Source: an uncultured Lachnospiraceae bacterium (GTDB lineage: Bacteria; Bacillota; Clostridia; Lachnospirales; Lachnospiraceae). From it: a stretch of 20,413 nt of DNA. The notes below the pieces were generated by a model that was given only the letters and a program-made list of their open reading frames with translations, did not search any database and was not told where the DNA came from. Location of the stretch: the NCBI GenBank assembly GCA_902783305.1, contig CACZQU010000136.1:1-20413 (forward strand), written 5' to 3'. The translations under genes and the position numbers were made by a program. This document shows positions 1-6,582 of this stretch, one piece after another. The stretch's first letter is position 1. Each line of letters starts with the position of its first letter.

Positions 1-57
1 GGTACTGTAGAAGCCTCAAGACAACATCGATTCTTCACACCGAAACAGAAGAGGTGC

Positions 58-195
58 TCCGGTGATATCCGGACGGATACCGTCCCATAGGTCTGTATCC
101 ACATCAAGTGGATGCGGACCGTACATGCCCGTGGCCGAAGGGGCGTGCCCGACCGAAGGGAGGGTTTTACACCGCTTTCCTTAAGCGGTGCAAAA
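58..195 (+). promoter_or_regulatory. Structured 5' leader RNA of the dehydrogenase gene, family not recognised
   Basis: The leader is packed with hairpins. Positions 58-62 pair with 69-73, which competes with 71-76 pairing with 80-85 around a three-base loop. A 13-bp stem joins 90-102 to 108-120 with a five-base loop, and its only non-Watson-Crick pairs are two G-U wobbles. Positions 124-130 pair with 141-147. A last hairpin joins 165-177 to 183-195 with one A-C mismatch. The motif CCGAAGGG occurs at 135-142 (as CCGAAGGG) and again at 153-160. The last stem has no U-run behind it, so it is not a simple terminator. The mutually exclusive first stems and the position ahead of the ribosome site suggest a cis-regulatory RNA. 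I checked by eye for lysine, FMN, SAM, TPP, cobalamin, glycine, THF, M-box, ZTP and T-box signatures and none fits well. Confidence 0.45.
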
Positions 196-223
196 GGCAT
201 ATTCTGCAGACCAGCGTTTATTT

Positions 224-230
224 AAGGAGG
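224..230 (+). promoter_or_regulatory. Ribosome binding site deciding the dehydrogenase start
   Basis: AAGGAGG lies seven bases before the ATG at 238. A second in-frame ATG at 250 would be 19 bases away, so 238 is the better start. Confidence 0.85.
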
Positions 231-237
231 AAAAAAA

Positions 238-1287
238 ATGGAAGGTACCATGAAAACAGCGGTTATGACCAGACTGAAATACTGTGAAATCCAGGAAAGG
301 CCGATTCCGCAGCCCAAGGATGATGAGGTTCTTGTAAAAGTGGAAAATGTAGGAGTCTGCGGGTCAGACCTTCATTATTATGAATCCGGCAGAATCGGGA
401 ACTTTATTGTAGAATATCCGTTTGTCCTCGGACACGAAGCAGGCGGTACCGTAGTAGAAGTGGGCAAAAATGTCACAAAGATCAAGGTTGGCGACCGTGT
501 CGCTCTCGAGCCGGGAAAGACCTGCGGGAAATGCGAATTCTGCAAAACCGGAAGATACAACCTCTGCCCGGATGTCATCTTCTTCGCCACGCCTCCTGTC
601 GATGGAGTTTTCCAGGAATATGTTGCTCATGAAGCAGAGCTTTGCTTCAAAATTCCGGAGAACATGTCTACCGAGGAAGCTGCTCTGATTGAGCCGCTGG
701 CCGTAGGTATGCATGCCGCCATACAGGGCGATGCTCATCTCGGCCAGACCGCGGTCGTGACAGGCTCCGGCTGCATCGGTCTGATGTCCCTTCTTTCCCT
801 GAAGGCAAGGGGCGTCTCCAAGGTCATCGTCGTTGATATTATGGATAAGCGTCTGGAACAGGCAAAGAAGCTTGGCGCAGACTATGTCATCAACGGCAAG
901 ACAGAGGATACCGTAGCCAGGATCATGGAGATTACCGAGGGAGCCGGCTTTGACCTGGGTGTCGAAACCGCCGGTTCACAGTTCACCGCTTCTCAGCTGA
1001 TCCAGGCAGCCAAAAAGGGAGCGACGATCGTCCTTGTCGGCTACAGCGCTTCCGGCGAAATGACTCTGCCCATCGGCATGGCTCTCGACAAGGAGCTGAC
1101 CTTCAAGACCGTGTTCCGCTATCGCAACATTTATCCGCTGGCCATCGAAGCGGTTGCAAGCGGAAAGATTGACGTCAAGGGTGTCGTCACAGACCGCTTC
1201 AAACTGGATGATATCCAGGAAGCCCTGACCGCATGCGTGGAAGATAAAGCCAATATCGTGAAGGGTGTCATCAAAATCTCCGACTGA
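238..1287 (+). CDS. Zinc-dependent alcohol/polyol dehydrogenase (sorbitol/xylitol dehydrogenase-like)
   Basis: This 349-residue protein is a medium-chain, zinc-dependent, NAD-linked dehydrogenase that would oxidise a sugar alcohol or a secondary alcohol to the ketone in the cytoplasm. The catalytic-zinc residues are C41 (in VCGSDLHYY), H66-E67 (in GHEAGG) and probably E152. Structural-zinc cysteines are C96, C99, C102 and C110. The nucleotide fold has GSGCIG at 176-181, and D200 at the end of the second strand favours NAD over NADP. Length and the GSDLHYY motif match sorbitol/xylitol dehydrogenases, but the exact substrate cannot be read from sequence. It is the only plus-strand gene, stands alone and follows a hairpin-rich leader. 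It converges on the hisA gene with a shared terminator between them. The family call is sure and the substrate open. Confidence 0.9.
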   Translation: MEGTMKTAVMTRLKYCEIQERPIPQPKDDEVLVKVENVGVCGSDLHYYESGRIGNFIVEYPFVLGHEAGGTVVEVGKNVTKIKVGDRVALEPGKTCGKCEFCKTGRYNLCPDVIFFATPPVDGVFQEYVAHEAELCFKIPENMSTEEAALIEPLAVGMHAAIQGDAHLGQTAVVTGSGCIGLMSLLSLKARGVSKVIVVDIMDKRLEQAKKLGADYVINGKTEDTVARIMEITEGAGFDLGVETAGSQFTASQLIQAAKKGATIVLVGYSASGEMTLPIGMALDKELTFKTVFRYRNIYPLAIEAVASGKIDVKGVVTDRFKLDDIQEALTACVEDKANIVKGVIKISD

Positions 1288-1432: not shown

Positions 1433-2203
1433 TTATCTGATTGAAATCACCTGTTCAAAAGGAATCGGTCCTCCGAACAGATCCAATGCGCTGCCAATGG
1501 TAAAATCCAGTCTTCCCTTGCCGCAGAGCCGCAGGAGATTCACATCCTCCATGCTCCCGATTCCTCCGGCATAGGTAACCGGTCTTTGGTGATATGTCCC
1601 CAGGAGCTCCGCCAGCTCCCGCTCAATACCGGAAGCCTTTCCTTCCACGTCCACGGCATGAACCAGGAACTCTGCGCAATACGCTCCGAGCGACTCCATC
1701 AGCTCCAGGGTGACAGGAACATCCGTAAATCTCTGCCAACGGTCGGTCACGATATAATACCGGTCATCCTTTCTCCTGCAGCTGATGTCCAGCACCAGCC
1801 TCTTTTGTCCTGCCGCGGATTTCATCTCCTCCAGCCTGTCCCAGCAGATTCTTCCCCCCTGAAAGACATAAGAGGTCACGATCACGTGGCTGGCTCCGGC
1901 TTCGAGGAAATAAGCCGCATTGTCCGGACGGATTCCTCCGCCGATCTGAAGGCCTCCCGGATAGGCGCCCAGCGCCTGAACCGCCTGCTGCCTTGTCGCT
2001 TCATATCCCGGGGTTCCGGCGCCGTTCAGAAGGATCACATGTCCCCCGGAAAGCCCATGCTCCCGGTAAAGCCCGGCAAACCAGGCCGCATCCTGGGAAG
2101 AGACATGATTTTCACGCAGTGCCCGGCCGTCATCCCGCAGGGAACCGCCTACGATCTGTTTCACCTTCCCGTCATGAATATCAATACACGGCCGGAATCT
2201 CAT
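1433..2203 (-). CDS. hisA: Phosphoribosylformimino-AICAR ribotide isomerase, eukaryotic-type HisA
   Basis: This 256-residue TIM barrel carries out the Amadori isomerisation of ProFAR to PRFAR in histidine synthesis. The N-terminus FRPCIDIHDGKVKQIVGG is the hallmark of the plant/yeast HIS6-type isomerase rather than the usual bacterial form (typically starting near MIIPAIDL). Likely acid/base residues are D8 and D139 (in LVLDISCRR). Phosphate-binding loops include GGGIR (88-92) and the late AGGIGS motif. The start ATG overlaps the dapB stop as ATGA (2200-2203), so translation is probably coupled, and it is the last gene before the terminator. No other his gene is in the window, so it sits apart from a his operon and within a lysine-pathway group. 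Family identity is clear from the motifs. Confidence 0.88.
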   Translation of the reverse strand: MRFRPCIDIHDGKVKQIVGGSLRDDGRALRENHVSSQDAAWFAGLYREHGLSGGHVILLNGAGTPGYEATRQQAVQALGAYPGGLQIGGGIRPDNAAYFLEAGASHVIVTSYVFQGGRICWDRLEEMKSAAGQKRLVLDISCRRKDDRYYIVTDRWQRFTDVPVTLELMESLGAYCAEFLVHAVDVEGKASGIERELAELLGTYHQRPVTYAGGIGSMEDVNLLRLCGKGRLDFTIGSALDLFGGPIPFEQVISIR

Positions 2204-2955
2204 GCGATCACATCCGCCATCTGATATCTGCCGGGAGCTTTTCCCTTCAGGAATTTTGCGGCTTCCAAAGCTCCCTTCGCAAAAATGGCCCGGGAAAACG
2301 CTGTGTGCTTAAACTCGATCACCTCGTCCGTACCGGCAAAGAGGATCTCATGCTCCCCGACAATGGTGCCGCCGCGGACCGCGCTGATCCCGATTTCCCT
2401 GCTGTCCCTTTTCTGGCTGACCTGGCTGCGGTCAAAGACATAATGGTATTGTCCATCCATCGCTTCGTTGATGCTGTCGGCCAGGGCCAGAGCCGTACCG
2501 CTGGGAGCGTCCAGCTTGCGGTTGTGGTGCTTCTCGACAATCTCCATATCAAAGCCGGCATTTGCCAGAACCTTTGCGGCGTCCTGCACCAGCTTCAGAA
2601 GAACATTGATGCCAAGGGACATATTGGCGGATTTGAGGATGGCGATTTCCCCGGAAGCCTCCTCGACCAGCGCAAGCTGCTCTTCACTCAGACCTGTCGT
2701 GCACAGAACGACCGGCAGTTTTTTTGCTCTGCAGTCCTTAAGAAGCTGATTCACTGCCTTTGCGGAGGAAAAATCCACCACAACATCGGCTTCCTCCACT
2801 ACCTCACCTACACTCCTGTAGACCGGAAAATCCGCCTTTCCGTCGTCCACGATATCCACACCCGCCACAATTTCAATCTGGGAATCCTTCTGTGCAAGAT
2901 CAGCGATCACTCTTCCCATATATCCCATGCAGCCATTCATGATGATTTTTGTCAT
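2200..2955 (-). CDS. dapB: 4-hydroxy-tetrahydrodipicolinate reductase
   Basis: This 251-residue enzyme reduces 4-hydroxy-tetrahydrodipicolinate with NAD(P)H, the second committed step of the diaminopimelate/lysine pathway. The N-terminal Rossmann segment is MNGCMGYMGR (6-15), and the CTTG loop is at 85-88. The family signature EKHHNRKLDAPSGTAL has catalytic H143/H144 and K147, followed by the substrate-binding SGT at 152-154. The conserved RGGTIVGEH motif comes later. The length is slightly below the usual 260-270 residues, which is normal for the shorter Clostridial form. It starts at ATG 2953-2955 with a GGGAGAG ribosome site. A palindromic element fills much of the 84-base gap to dapA upstream. 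The four-base overlap with hisA downstream supports a shared transcript. Confidence 0.96.
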   Translation of the reverse strand: MTKIIMNGCMGYMGRVIADLAQKDSQIEIVAGVDIVDDGKADFPVYRSVGEVVEEADVVVDFSSAKAVNQLLKDCRAKKLPVVLCTTGLSEEQLALVEEASGEIAILKSANMSLGINVLLKLVQDAAKVLANAGFDMEIVEKHHNRKLDAPSGTALALADSINEAMDGQYHYVFDRSQVSQKRDSREIGISAVRGGTIVGEHEILFAGTDEVIEFKHTAFSRAIFAKGALEAAKFLKGKAPGRYQMADVIA

Positions 2956-2978
2956 AGCTTATCTCTCCCTGAATCACC

Positions 2979-3029
2979 GGGGACGGTTCTCACTGGCTCG
3001 CCTTCGCCGAGTCAGTAAAAACCGTCCCC
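2979..3029. repeat. REP-like palindromic element between dapA and dapB
   Basis: The outer arms GGGGACGGTT (2979-2988) and AACCGTCCCC (3020-3029) pair perfectly. An inner stem joins 2992-3000 to 3008-3016 with one G-U pair and a seven-base loop. No T-run follows on the minus strand, so it is not a simple terminator. The GGGGACGGT core resembles palindromes scattered through many Clostridial genomes, but its mobility is an inference. It lies inside the transcript between dapA and dapB and could affect mRNA stability there. Confidence 0.7.
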
Positions 3030-3039
3030 ATGACTCCCT

Positions 3040-3924
3040 TTACATCAATCCATAGTCCTTCATTGACTTGATGAGACGTTCCTTGTTTTTGGGCTCCATT
3101 TCGCATAATGGCATTCTGGTGGGACCTACCTCCTTGCCAAGCAGATTCATCGCTGTCTTGACCGGAATAGGATTCACTTCGCAGAAAAGAGATTCAATCA
3201 GATCGATAGCATCCAGCTGAAGCTTCGCTGCTTTTGCCAGATTTCCATTCAGAAACTCCATGACGATGTCATGGGTCTGTCTTGGCGCAACATTGGAAAG
3301 AACAGAGATCACTCCGATTCCTCCGAGAGAAAGAACCGGCAGGATCTGATCGTCATTTCCGGAATACAGATCCAGCTTTCCATCGCAAAGTGCCATCGTC
3401 CTGGCAATCTGTGAAAGGTTGCCGCTGGCCGCCTTCAGTCCTACGATATTCGGTACATCCTTTGCCAGAGCGGCCATCGTCTCCGGAAGGATATTGCAGC
3501 CGGTCCGGCTGGGGACATTGTAGACAATGACCGGAACATCCACAGACTTCGCGACCGTCGTATAGTGTCCGATGAGACCCTTCTGGGACGCTTTGTTGTA
3601 ATACGGCGTCACGACAAGAATCCCGTCCACTCCATAGGATGCCGCTTCCTGTGACATCATCACCGCTGTCTCGGTGCAGTTGGAGCCTGTACCACCGATC
3701 ACGGGAAGACGTCCCTTCACCTGATCCACCGCAAATTTGATCGTTTTGAGGTGTTCCCCATGGGTAAGGGTCGAGGATTCTCCTGTCGTGCCGCAGATAA
3801 TGATCGCGTCGGTGCCGTTTTCTATCTGCTCATTCAGGATTTCGTCCAGTTTATCATAATTTACCTTCCCGTCATCATACATCGGGGTGACAATTGCCAC
3901 TCCGGCTCCTTTAAAGATCGCCAT
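3040..3924 (-). CDS. dapA: 4-hydroxy-tetrahydrodipicolinate synthase
   Basis: This 294-residue TIM-barrel aldolase of the DHDPS/NAL family condenses pyruvate with aspartate semialdehyde, the entry step into diaminopimelate and lysine. The pyruvate-binding loop GTTGES puts T46 and T47 in place. Y109 (in TPYYNK) and the catalytic Y135 (in YNVPSRTG, with R140 for substrate binding) complete the triad. K164 in GLKAASG is the Schiff-base lysine. All catalytic residues of true DapA are present, which argues against an N-acetylneuraminate lyase. The gene starts at ATG 3922-3924 behind a GGGAGG site, 25 bases after the stop of the adenosyltransferase gene. It is the second gene of a four-gene group. 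Confidence 0.96.
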   Translation of the reverse strand: MAIFKGAGVAIVTPMYDDGKVNYDKLDEILNEQIENGTDAIIICGTTGESSTLTHGEHLKTIKFAVDQVKGRLPVIGGTGSNCTETAVMMSQEAASYGVDGILVVTPYYNKASQKGLIGHYTTVAKSVDVPVIVYNVPSRTGCNILPETMAALAKDVPNIVGLKAASGNLSQIARTMALCDGKLDLYSGNDDQILPVLSLGGIGVISVLSNVAPRQTHDIVMEFLNGNLAKAAKLQLDAIDLIESLFCEVNPIPVKTAMNLLGKEVGPTRMPLCEMEPKNKERLIKSMKDYGLM

Positions 3925-4609: not shown

Positions 4610-4751
4610 CCGGGCATGTTACTACTCACGGATTAACCGTAAAGCCACGCGCGGGCGAAGGGTCAGACCGTGAATTGTAACCGGGCGTGCTGCGAAGCAC
4701 GGCTTAACCGTAACGCCGCGCGCAGGAAAACAGTCAGCACGGTAACCGTTC
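4610..4751. repeat. 71-bp imperfect tandem duplication behind typA
   Basis: Two copies (4610-4680 and 4681-4751) both begin CCGGGC. They share blocks such as TTAACCGTAA (4632-4641 and 4703-4712), CGCGC and GTCAG in register, about two thirds identical by eye. Copy 2 has a perfect hairpin CGTGCT-GCGA-AGCACG (4686-4701) and its end runs into the typA stop codon. This resembles a dispersed intergenic repeat of gut Clostridia. No function can be read. Confidence 0.7.
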
Positions 4752-6582
4752 AGCTCTTGCGGAAAGCGGCACGTTTACGGTCCCTGGAGTCCAGAATCCG
4801 TTTACGGATGCGCAGATTCTCAGGAGTGACCTCCAGAAGCTCGTCCTGATCGATAAATTCGATGGACTGCTCCAGGGAAAAGATTCTGGGCGGCGTAAGC
4901 TTCAGTGCTTCATCCGCATTGGATGAACGGGTGTTGGTCAGATGCTTGGTCTTGCATACATTCAGCTCGATATCCTCTGCCTTTCCATTCTGTCCGATGA
5001 CCATGCCGGCATAGACCTTTTCCCCTGGACCGACAAACAGAGTTCCTCTTTCCTGTGCAATGAAAAGACCATAGGTTACCGTCTCTCCGGCTTCAAAAGC
5101 AATAAGAGAGCCCTGCTTCCGGTAAGTAAAATCTCCCTTATACGGCGCATACCCATCAAAAATGGTATTGATTACCCCCGTACCTTTGGTATTGGTCAGA
5201 AAATCCCCATTGAAGCCAATCAGTCCGCGGGAAGGAATCCGGAATTCCAGCCGGACGGATCCGTCCGTGGAGGTACTCATATTCTGAAGCTCCCCTTTTC
5301 GCTCACTCAACATCTGGATGACCGTTCCGGAGTATTCCTCTGCCACATCCACGTAGGCCAGCTCCATGGGTTCAAGCTTATTCCCCTTGCCGTCATACCG
5401 GTAAAGGACTTCCGGCTTACTGACGGCGAATTCGTACCCCTCCCGGCGCATGTTTTCAATCAGGACAGAAAGATGCAGCTCACCTCTTCCGGAGACTTTG
5501 AAGCATTCCGTTGTATCCGTATCCTCCACTCTGAGGCTGACATCGGTATTCAGCTCACGGTAAAGACGGTCGCGCAGGTGCCGGGAGGTCACATATTTTC
5601 CTTCCTGTCCTGCCATGGGGCTGTCATTGACCAGGAAATTCATCGCGATAGTCGGCTCGGAAATCTTCTGGAAAGGAATCGCCTTCGGATGCTCTCCGCC
5701 GCACAGCGTATCTCCGATGTGGATTCCGGAGATCCCGGAAATTGCGACGATGGATCCCACGGAAGCAGATTTTACCTCTACTTTACTCAGACCGTCAAAC
5801 TCATAAAGCTTACTGATCCTGACCTTGGTCACCTTATCCGGATCATGGTGGTTGAGCATGGTGAGATCCTGGTTGACACTGATCGTTCCGTTTTCCACCT
5901 TGCCTACACCGATTCTGCCCACATATTCATTGTAATCGATGGTACTGATCAGCACCTGTGTATCTGCCTCCGGATCCCCCTCAGGAGCGGGGATATACTT
6001 CAGAATGGCTTCAAATAACGGCTCCATATTCTCCGGCGTGTCCCTCAGATCCAGCACGGCATGGCCTGTCTTGGCCGAAGCATAAAGGAAAGGACAGTCC
6101 AGCTGCTCATCGGAAGCACCCAGATCCATCAGAAGCTCAAGCACTTCATCCACCACATCGTCTGGGCGCGCCTCGGGCCGGTCGATTTTATTGATGCACA
6201 CCAGGACATGCAGGTTCAGCTCCAGCGCCTTTTTCAGGACAAACTTTGTCTGCGGCATAGCCCCCTCGAAGGCATCCACCAGAAGAATGACACCGTCCAC
6301 CATTTTCAGTACGCGCTCCACTTCACCGCCAAAATCCGCGTGTCCGGGCGTATCCACGATATTTATCTTCGTTCCCTTGTAATGTACTGCCGTGTTTTTG
6401 GAAAGGATCGTGATGCCGCGCTCCCGTTCGATATCATTGGAATCCATGACCCTTTCCTGAACCTCCTGGTTCTCCCTGAATACACCGCTCTGCCGAAGCA
6501 GCTGGTCAACCAGCGTCGTTTTGCCATGGTCTACATGAGCGATAATTGCAACGTTGCGTACGTCATCCCGTTTAATTTTCAT
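4750..6582 (-). CDS. typA: Translational GTPase TypA/BipA
   Basis: This 610-residue ribosome-associated GTPase of the EF-G/LepA superfamily is linked to 50S assembly and stress adaptation. All G motifs are visible: G1 AHVDHGKT (15-22), G2 RGITI, G3 DTPGHADFGG, G4 NKID and G5 SAK. They are followed by the beta-barrel and EF-G-like domains III and V and the TypA-specific C-terminal domain (NVCKTKHLTNTRSS and TPPRIFSLEQSIEFI). The start is placed at ATG 6580-6582 because homologues begin near MKIKRDDVRN and a purine-rich GGAAGGATGAGAAGGG stretch precedes it. A longer frame would need a TTG at 6627 and adds 15 unconserved residues. The gene is alone between the repeats at 4610-4751 and the upstream aminotransferase terminator. 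Confidence 0.96.
   Translation of the reverse strand: MKIKRDDVRNVAIIAHVDHGKTTLVDQLLRQSGVFRENQEVQERVMDSNDIERERGITILSKNTAVHYKGTKINIVDTPGHADFGGEVERVLKMVDGVILLVDAFEGAMPQTKFVLKKALELNLHVLVCINKIDRPEARPDDVVDEVLELLMDLGASDEQLDCPFLYASAKTGHAVLDLRDTPENMEPLFEAILKYIPAPEGDPEADTQVLISTIDYNEYVGRIGVGKVENGTISVNQDLTMLNHHDPDKVTKVRISKLYEFDGLSKVEVKSASVGSIVAISGISGIHIGDTLCGGEHPKAIPFQKISEPTIAMNFLVNDSPMAGQEGKYVTSRHLRDRLYRELNTDVSLRVEDTDTTECFKVSGRGELHLSVLIENMRREGYEFAVSKPEVLYRYDGKGNKLEPMELAYVDVAEEYSGTVIQMLSERKGELQNMSTSTDGSVRLEFRIPSRGLIGFNGDFLTNTKGTGVINTIFDGYAPYKGDFTYRKQGSLIAFEAGETVTYGLFIAQERGTLFVGPGEKVYAGMVIGQNGKAEDIELNVCKTKHLTNTRSSNADEALKLTPPRIFSLEQSIEFIDQDELLEVTPENLRIRKRILDSRDRKRAAFRKS

Follow-up and report, generated by a model that had tools for sequence, protein, structure and literature searches.

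The segment at positions 88-200 of the window (the whole stretch of 20,413 nt of DNA from an uncultured Lachnospiraceae bacterium that was analyzed) is, with a probability of about 0.8, a copy from a family of small, structured interspersed repeats that are non-autonomous, occur in some Lachnospiraceae and are similar in kind to BOX and ERIC. The element, named E, is repeated and dispersed, lies in both orientations, has tandem and truncated forms, is present at some orthologous sites and absent from others, and retains its fold by compensatory change. The genomes compared are metagenome-assembled, with that of the window 82% complete and with 5.97% contamination.

The leader upstream of the dehydrogenase gene had been described as a row of strong stems, and every stem of this description was found in the sequence: the 13-bp stem at 90-102/108-120 that includes two G-U pairs, the overlapping alternatives at 58-62/69-73 and 71-76/80-85, the motif CCGAAGGG at 135-142 and 153-160, and a last stem of 8 bp at 170-177/183-190 that is lengthened by U165-168 with A192-195. 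When window 1-240 was folded as a unit, a z of -5.63 was obtained and none of 200 shuffles was equal or better. When the leader was split, segment 88-200 alone had a z of -5.4 (0 of 300 shuffles equal or better), compared to -0.8 for 1-87 alone (63 of 300) and -1.2 for the two flanks joined without 88-200 (35 of 300). Thus, the fold signal is confined to 88-200, and this segment was taken as the feature. The stems within 90-200 are beyond chance, and to this extent the row of strong stems was borne out; the stems outside 88-200, including the 58-85 alternatives, are within chance. An outer stem formed by 1-16 with 195-212 was considered as a riboswitch P1 and rejected, as the duplex was matched by 27 of 300 shuffles and 1-87 had no relatives in blastn of the family and genus genomes except the overlapping contig, short chance-level matches aside. 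The coordinates of all features are listed in Table 1.

Table 1. Features of the E copy and its surroundings in the window (R1, covariance model built from five copies).
Positions	Strand	Feature	Basis or remark
1..87	+	Unrelated 5' flank	No structure above chance; equals the overlap with contig C605
88..200	+	E copy, structured dispersed repeat of ~110 nt	R1 match at 85-205, 121.3 bits (the window belonged to the R1 training set); blastn 94-201; z -5.4
90..120	+	H1, 13-bp hairpin, loop AUCAA (ACAUCA.G family loop)	12/13 pairs changed on both sides
127..129	+	GCC, 5' strand of the junction-closing stem, pairs with 196-198	Comparison of copies
130..147	+	H2, hairpin with GAAG loop, holds first CCGAAGGG	Comparison of copies
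148..164	+	H3, hairpin with tandem GA internal loop, holds second CCGAAGGG	100% of cells paired
165..195	+	H4, hairpin with loop UCCUU	12/13 pairs changed on both sides
196..200	+	GGCAU, 3' strand of closing stem (GGC 196-198) and 3' boundary of E	Flanks of copies diverge beyond
224..230	+	AAGGAGG, ribosome binding site of dehydrogenase	Read from sequence
238..1287	+	Zinc-dependent medium-chain dehydrogenase	ATG at 238; polyol type likely

Comparison of the copies revealed an architecture in which H1 is followed by a three-hairpin junction, with the GCC/GGC stem enclosing H2, H3 and H4. The closing stem and H2 are placed by the comparison only, because the minimum-energy fold of the window by itself replaces the closing stem and takes a shifted stem in place of H2, which has a G.G mismatch in this copy. 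A consensus fold derived from five copies has 40 pairs, and in 15 of these both sides have changed. In an alignment of 28 model-aligned copies, 94.5% of cells were paired and 34 of the 40 pairs were changed on both sides; this alignment is fitted to a structure that derives from five of the same copies, and many of the 28 copies are closely related to one another. The paired value was reached by none of 500 column shuffles, and sliding the partners reduced pairing to 36.5-49.4%. When 11 diverged copies were aligned by MAFFT without fitting to the structure, 35 pairs were obtained, of which 20 were changed on both sides. These compensatory changes reveal that the 90-120 stem is kept, as its two wobble pairs had hinted, and that the neighboring stems are kept with it. 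Judged from this pattern of substitution, the fold is likely to have a role in RNA or in single-stranded DNA.

Copies of E were found well outside the window. In a blastn search of the window's genus (60 genomes), one place was detected in G234 (79% identity over 94-200), and by blastn of 200 family genomes at an E-value limit of 10, at which chance matches, mostly short, occur in each genome, three places in G142 matched window 100-201 (or 100-200) with 70-75% identity. The R1 model detected, at an E-value ≤1, 53 matches in G142, six in the window's genome and three in G234. At an E-value ≤1e-5, the related rumen genome G142 had 33 matches, namely 25 of at least 100 nt and eight short ones of H1 only, and G462 of the same genus had 22 (20 long and two H1-only), with some of the long matches being truncated copies that the model stretched to its full length; the other 11 genomes examined of this genus had none at this threshold. 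A second model, R2, found E in two of 10 genomes of the window's genus, with two places in the window's own genome and one in G234. A pattern search for one E subtype, performed with one genome per species and possibly without the records of the window's own genome, detected 15 stretches in RUG14788 (uncultured Lachnospiraceae, G142), seven in RUG12359 (G462), and one each in RUG11222 and Blautia sp. RGIG5147 (G234). Overall, with nine candidates scored per genome, E was present in at least four of 397 family genomes and in at least two of 391 class genomes, one of which is the window's own and the other a marginal match in G777 (E-values of 2.2e-5 and 5.9e-5). The G777 locus, from another family of the class, consists of two hairpin-rich units in tandem (199 nt together) with a CCATCAGGGG hairpin, and is marginally matched by R2.

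A counterpoint to the repeat reading is that E is not abundant in the window's own genome, where only two full-length matches were found, one of them weak, with few in relatives. The second copy of this genome (C323, 880-997) is diverged and lies between divergent reading frames, the left of which appears by eye to encode a membrane transporter component. In contig C102 of the same genome, a terminator-like hairpin at 4723-4772 carries the H1 loop CACATCAGGTG with A and T runs on either side. Short matches to the H3 region were also observed in other genera: an exact 22-nt match to window 144-165 in G129 (C83, 13310-13331) and a 21-nt match of 95% to window 144-164 in G114 (C21, 21218-21238). 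Carriage of E by a virus or plasmid was rejected, with no pattern matches in viral contigs and no plasmid match to window 1-240.

The neighbors of E are diverse. Sense copies were found in the pta-ackA gap, ahead of a PYC_OADA carboxylase gene (the gene preceding this copy was identified by eye only), and following the genes for a glutamate dehydrogenase and a dUTPase. Antisense copies separate the genes for L23 and L2 and those for an ArsR regulator and a P-type ATPase, and another adjoins an ABC ATPase gene (neighbors assigned by Pfam). The L23-L2 gap holds a single E in G142 and two tandem copies, 105 nt apart, in G462; tandem units were also seen by eye in G352. Other copies are in pieces. 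H1 occurs alone elsewhere, as a longer palindrome, and a set of copies (L061, L062, L067, L096, L099, L102 and L103) is truncated at a variable 5' position with the 3' end intact, a form that recalls the products of target-primed reverse transcription or one-ended transposition. Many E or H1-only copies of G142 and G462 (e.g., L041 and L102) are adjoined by a palindromic composite of ~300 nt with the ends ATTTNTGGAACACCCAC and GTGGGTGTTCCAGAAAT; this composite breaks contigs and has probably amplified the E copies next to it.

Truncated and hairpin-only copies also bear on whether E is a stand-alone small RNA gene that was amplified in the genome. The compact conserved fold and the tandem copies are consistent with such a gene; the pieces are not, and a simple consensus scan detected no sigma-70-type promoter-like site in window 1-400 or in positions 1-400 of locus L036. 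A gene of this type is thus extremely improbable.

We also compared orthologous sites with and without E. A search for the dehydrogenase in each of the 64 genomes of the window's genus gave matches at an E-value ≤1e-100 in 23. The four closest orthologues (L107 to L110, with 93, 89, 87 and 82% identity, respectively) had no E within ~1.5 kb upstream. E is absent from these close relatives and is not a fixed leader of the dehydrogenase gene. A binding-protein gene was identified by eye upstream of the dehydrogenase in L107 and L108, and other sequence in L109 and L110; since L107 and L108 keep this gene without E, the arrangement of genes is old and does not include E. Window 1-87 was likewise absent from, or not alignable to, the four orthologue leaders, and the insertion is thus not clean against the orthologues. 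The L108 leader (G237) has another hairpin-rich stretch, with GGGGCGCC...GGCGCCCC and GGGTAGAG...CTCTACCC, in which R2 finds no E. At a second site, 11 of 13 sister-genus genomes had an acetate kinase match; E precedes ackA in two of these 11 (G142 and G462) and is absent in nine, eight of which have the end of pta directly upstream of ackA by eye. No mobilizing enzyme was found for E. No same-species empty site and no target-site duplication were found, the dehydrogenase and pta-ackA gaps being too diverged for the insertion ends to be placed.

The first base of the window is a contig end. Contig C605 overlaps it over precisely window 1-87, extending further upstream and stopping one base before E. 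Since this 87-nt overlap ends where E starts, an assembly branch at the insertion boundary is suggested, reflecting either a mixture of strains that have and lack E or a branch of another origin, although no empty allele was seen. C605 carries a gene for a periplasmic sugar-binding protein (Peripla_BP_4), 3' of which are a terminator-like hairpin that reads on the opposite strand and a second one on this strand. The dehydrogenase is likely of the polyol type; no NCBIfam equivalog passed its cut-off for it. Past this gene, frames at 1433-3924 on the minus strand resemble a HisA-like protein, DapB and DapA by eye.

The original prediction was that the leader may sense a sugar alcohol or its phosphate for the dehydrogenase. 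A riboswitch or other metabolite-sensing leader would account for a strong, conserved, multi-helix fold with a junction that is located just upstream of a ribosome site, and sense copies do precede ackA and a carboxylase subunit gene as well. By contrast, it would not account for antisense copies in ribosomal-protein, ArsR/ATPase and ABC gene clusters, for copies in tandem and in pieces, or for the lack of E before the four closest orthologues and before ackA in nine of 11 genomes. No Rfam family reached threshold anywhere in the window, in agreement with the earlier view that the leader fits no known riboswitch; with relaxed thresholds on 1-400, the best match in Rfam 15 was freshwater-2 over 172-240, at 18.5 bits compared to a cut-off of 49.9 bits. 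Two other Rfam matches, an S10-Clostridia leader and a tRNA, were both away from E, and the window itself had no tRNA. A known riboswitch or RNA family was therefore rejected, at the gathering and the relaxed thresholds of Rfam alike. With E beside unrelated genes in both orientations, the proposed sugar-alcohol sensor was not supported, and metabolite sensing of any type is very unlikely here.

A further explanation is a repeat that spreads and whose fold and UCCUU loop or junction are kept to act in cis on ribosome sites, on translation, or on mRNA stability or decay. The UCCUU loop of H4 is retained in most diverged copies, and several sense copies sit in the gaps of apparent operons, for which a cis function is possible. 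In the window, the H4 segment 176-184, which spans loop and stem bases, is predicted to be able to pair with 222-230 over the ribosome site by nine contiguous pairs, seven of them Watson-Crick. However, any such pyrimidine loop matches ribosome sites, duplexfold of this stretch favors another pairing, the copy between pta and ackA allows only ~4 pairs by eye, and the loop is also retained in antisense copies. Because of the latter two findings, the pairing of the loop with the ribosome site is taken only as a lead, and selection of E for a cis-acting role appears unlikely. If it were true, E insertion would rewire its neighbors, such as the dehydrogenase, ackA and carboxylase genes.

Returning to an interspersed repeat as the best explanation, E would have inserted between the end of the periplasmic sugar-binding protein gene on C605 and the zinc dehydrogenase gene. 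It would spread as a mobile element, and its fold may serve mobility, as single-stranded DNA or RNA, or tolerance in transcripts. In the dehydrogenase mRNA, E would fold into stable hairpins, through which it could influence translation, read-through or the stability of the message, by analogy to what is known for BOX and ERIC, and would not sense a ligand for the dehydrogenase. If the fold were selected for RNA function, the family would supply new leader RNAs through its mobility. A false riboswitch candidate is removed by these results, and a family of structured repeats that occurs also as tandem units, as single hairpins and as truncated copies is added for rumen Lachnospiraceae. The locus also illustrates a trap, in that a leader can fold strongly and show covariation without being a locus-specific regulator.

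Among known systems, the riboswitches and cis-regulatory RNAs of Rfam 15 are like E in having a conserved multi-helix fold upstream of a gene, with no family at threshold; by contrast to the steady sense position of riboswitches before related genes, E occurs in both orientations and beside unrelated genes. Closer in kind are the BOX repeats of Streptococcus pneumoniae, which are described as small, intergenic and modular, with a variable number of modules and predicted RNA stem-loops, as located at the 5' and 3' sides of operons and transcribed as operon extensions, and as thought to be non-autonomous mobile elements (PMC3049150). Compared to BOX as described there, E appears to have another sequence and another set of modules; it has a long hairpin followed by a three-hairpin junction, and no transposase link such as that of BOX with ISSpn2 was found for E. 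ERIC (IRU) of enterobacteria is a structured intergenic repeat of ~127 bp in transcribed regions, with reported orientation-dependent effects. E appears to differ from ERIC in sequence, host group and fold and has tandem and hairpin-only forms. Dispersed palindromic hairpins are shared by E and the REP/REPIN elements associated with RAYT, and H1 alone resembles a REP-like palindrome; REP measures 20-40 bp and carries a GTAG or CGTC tag (PMC3733652), whereas E is ~110 nt (88-200) and has no such tag at H1 by eye. A Y1 tyrosine transposase (RAYT) was rejected as mobilizer of E, as PF01797 had no match in G142, the genome richest in copies, or in G154, and was found in eight of 10 genomes examined, E-free ones among them. 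We make no claim that E belongs to BOX, ERIC or REP; from REP it is set apart by size and tag. In a survey of stem-loop repeat (SLS) families of 40 genomes, 57 of 92 families share a predicted structure (PMC2267715). Dispersed copies, a shared fold and presence/absence place E with such small interspersed structured repeats, the general kind of BOX, ERIC and SLS. Within the literature searched, which is not the full body, no description of the E family was found, and to this extent the family is new, its kind being an ordinary one.
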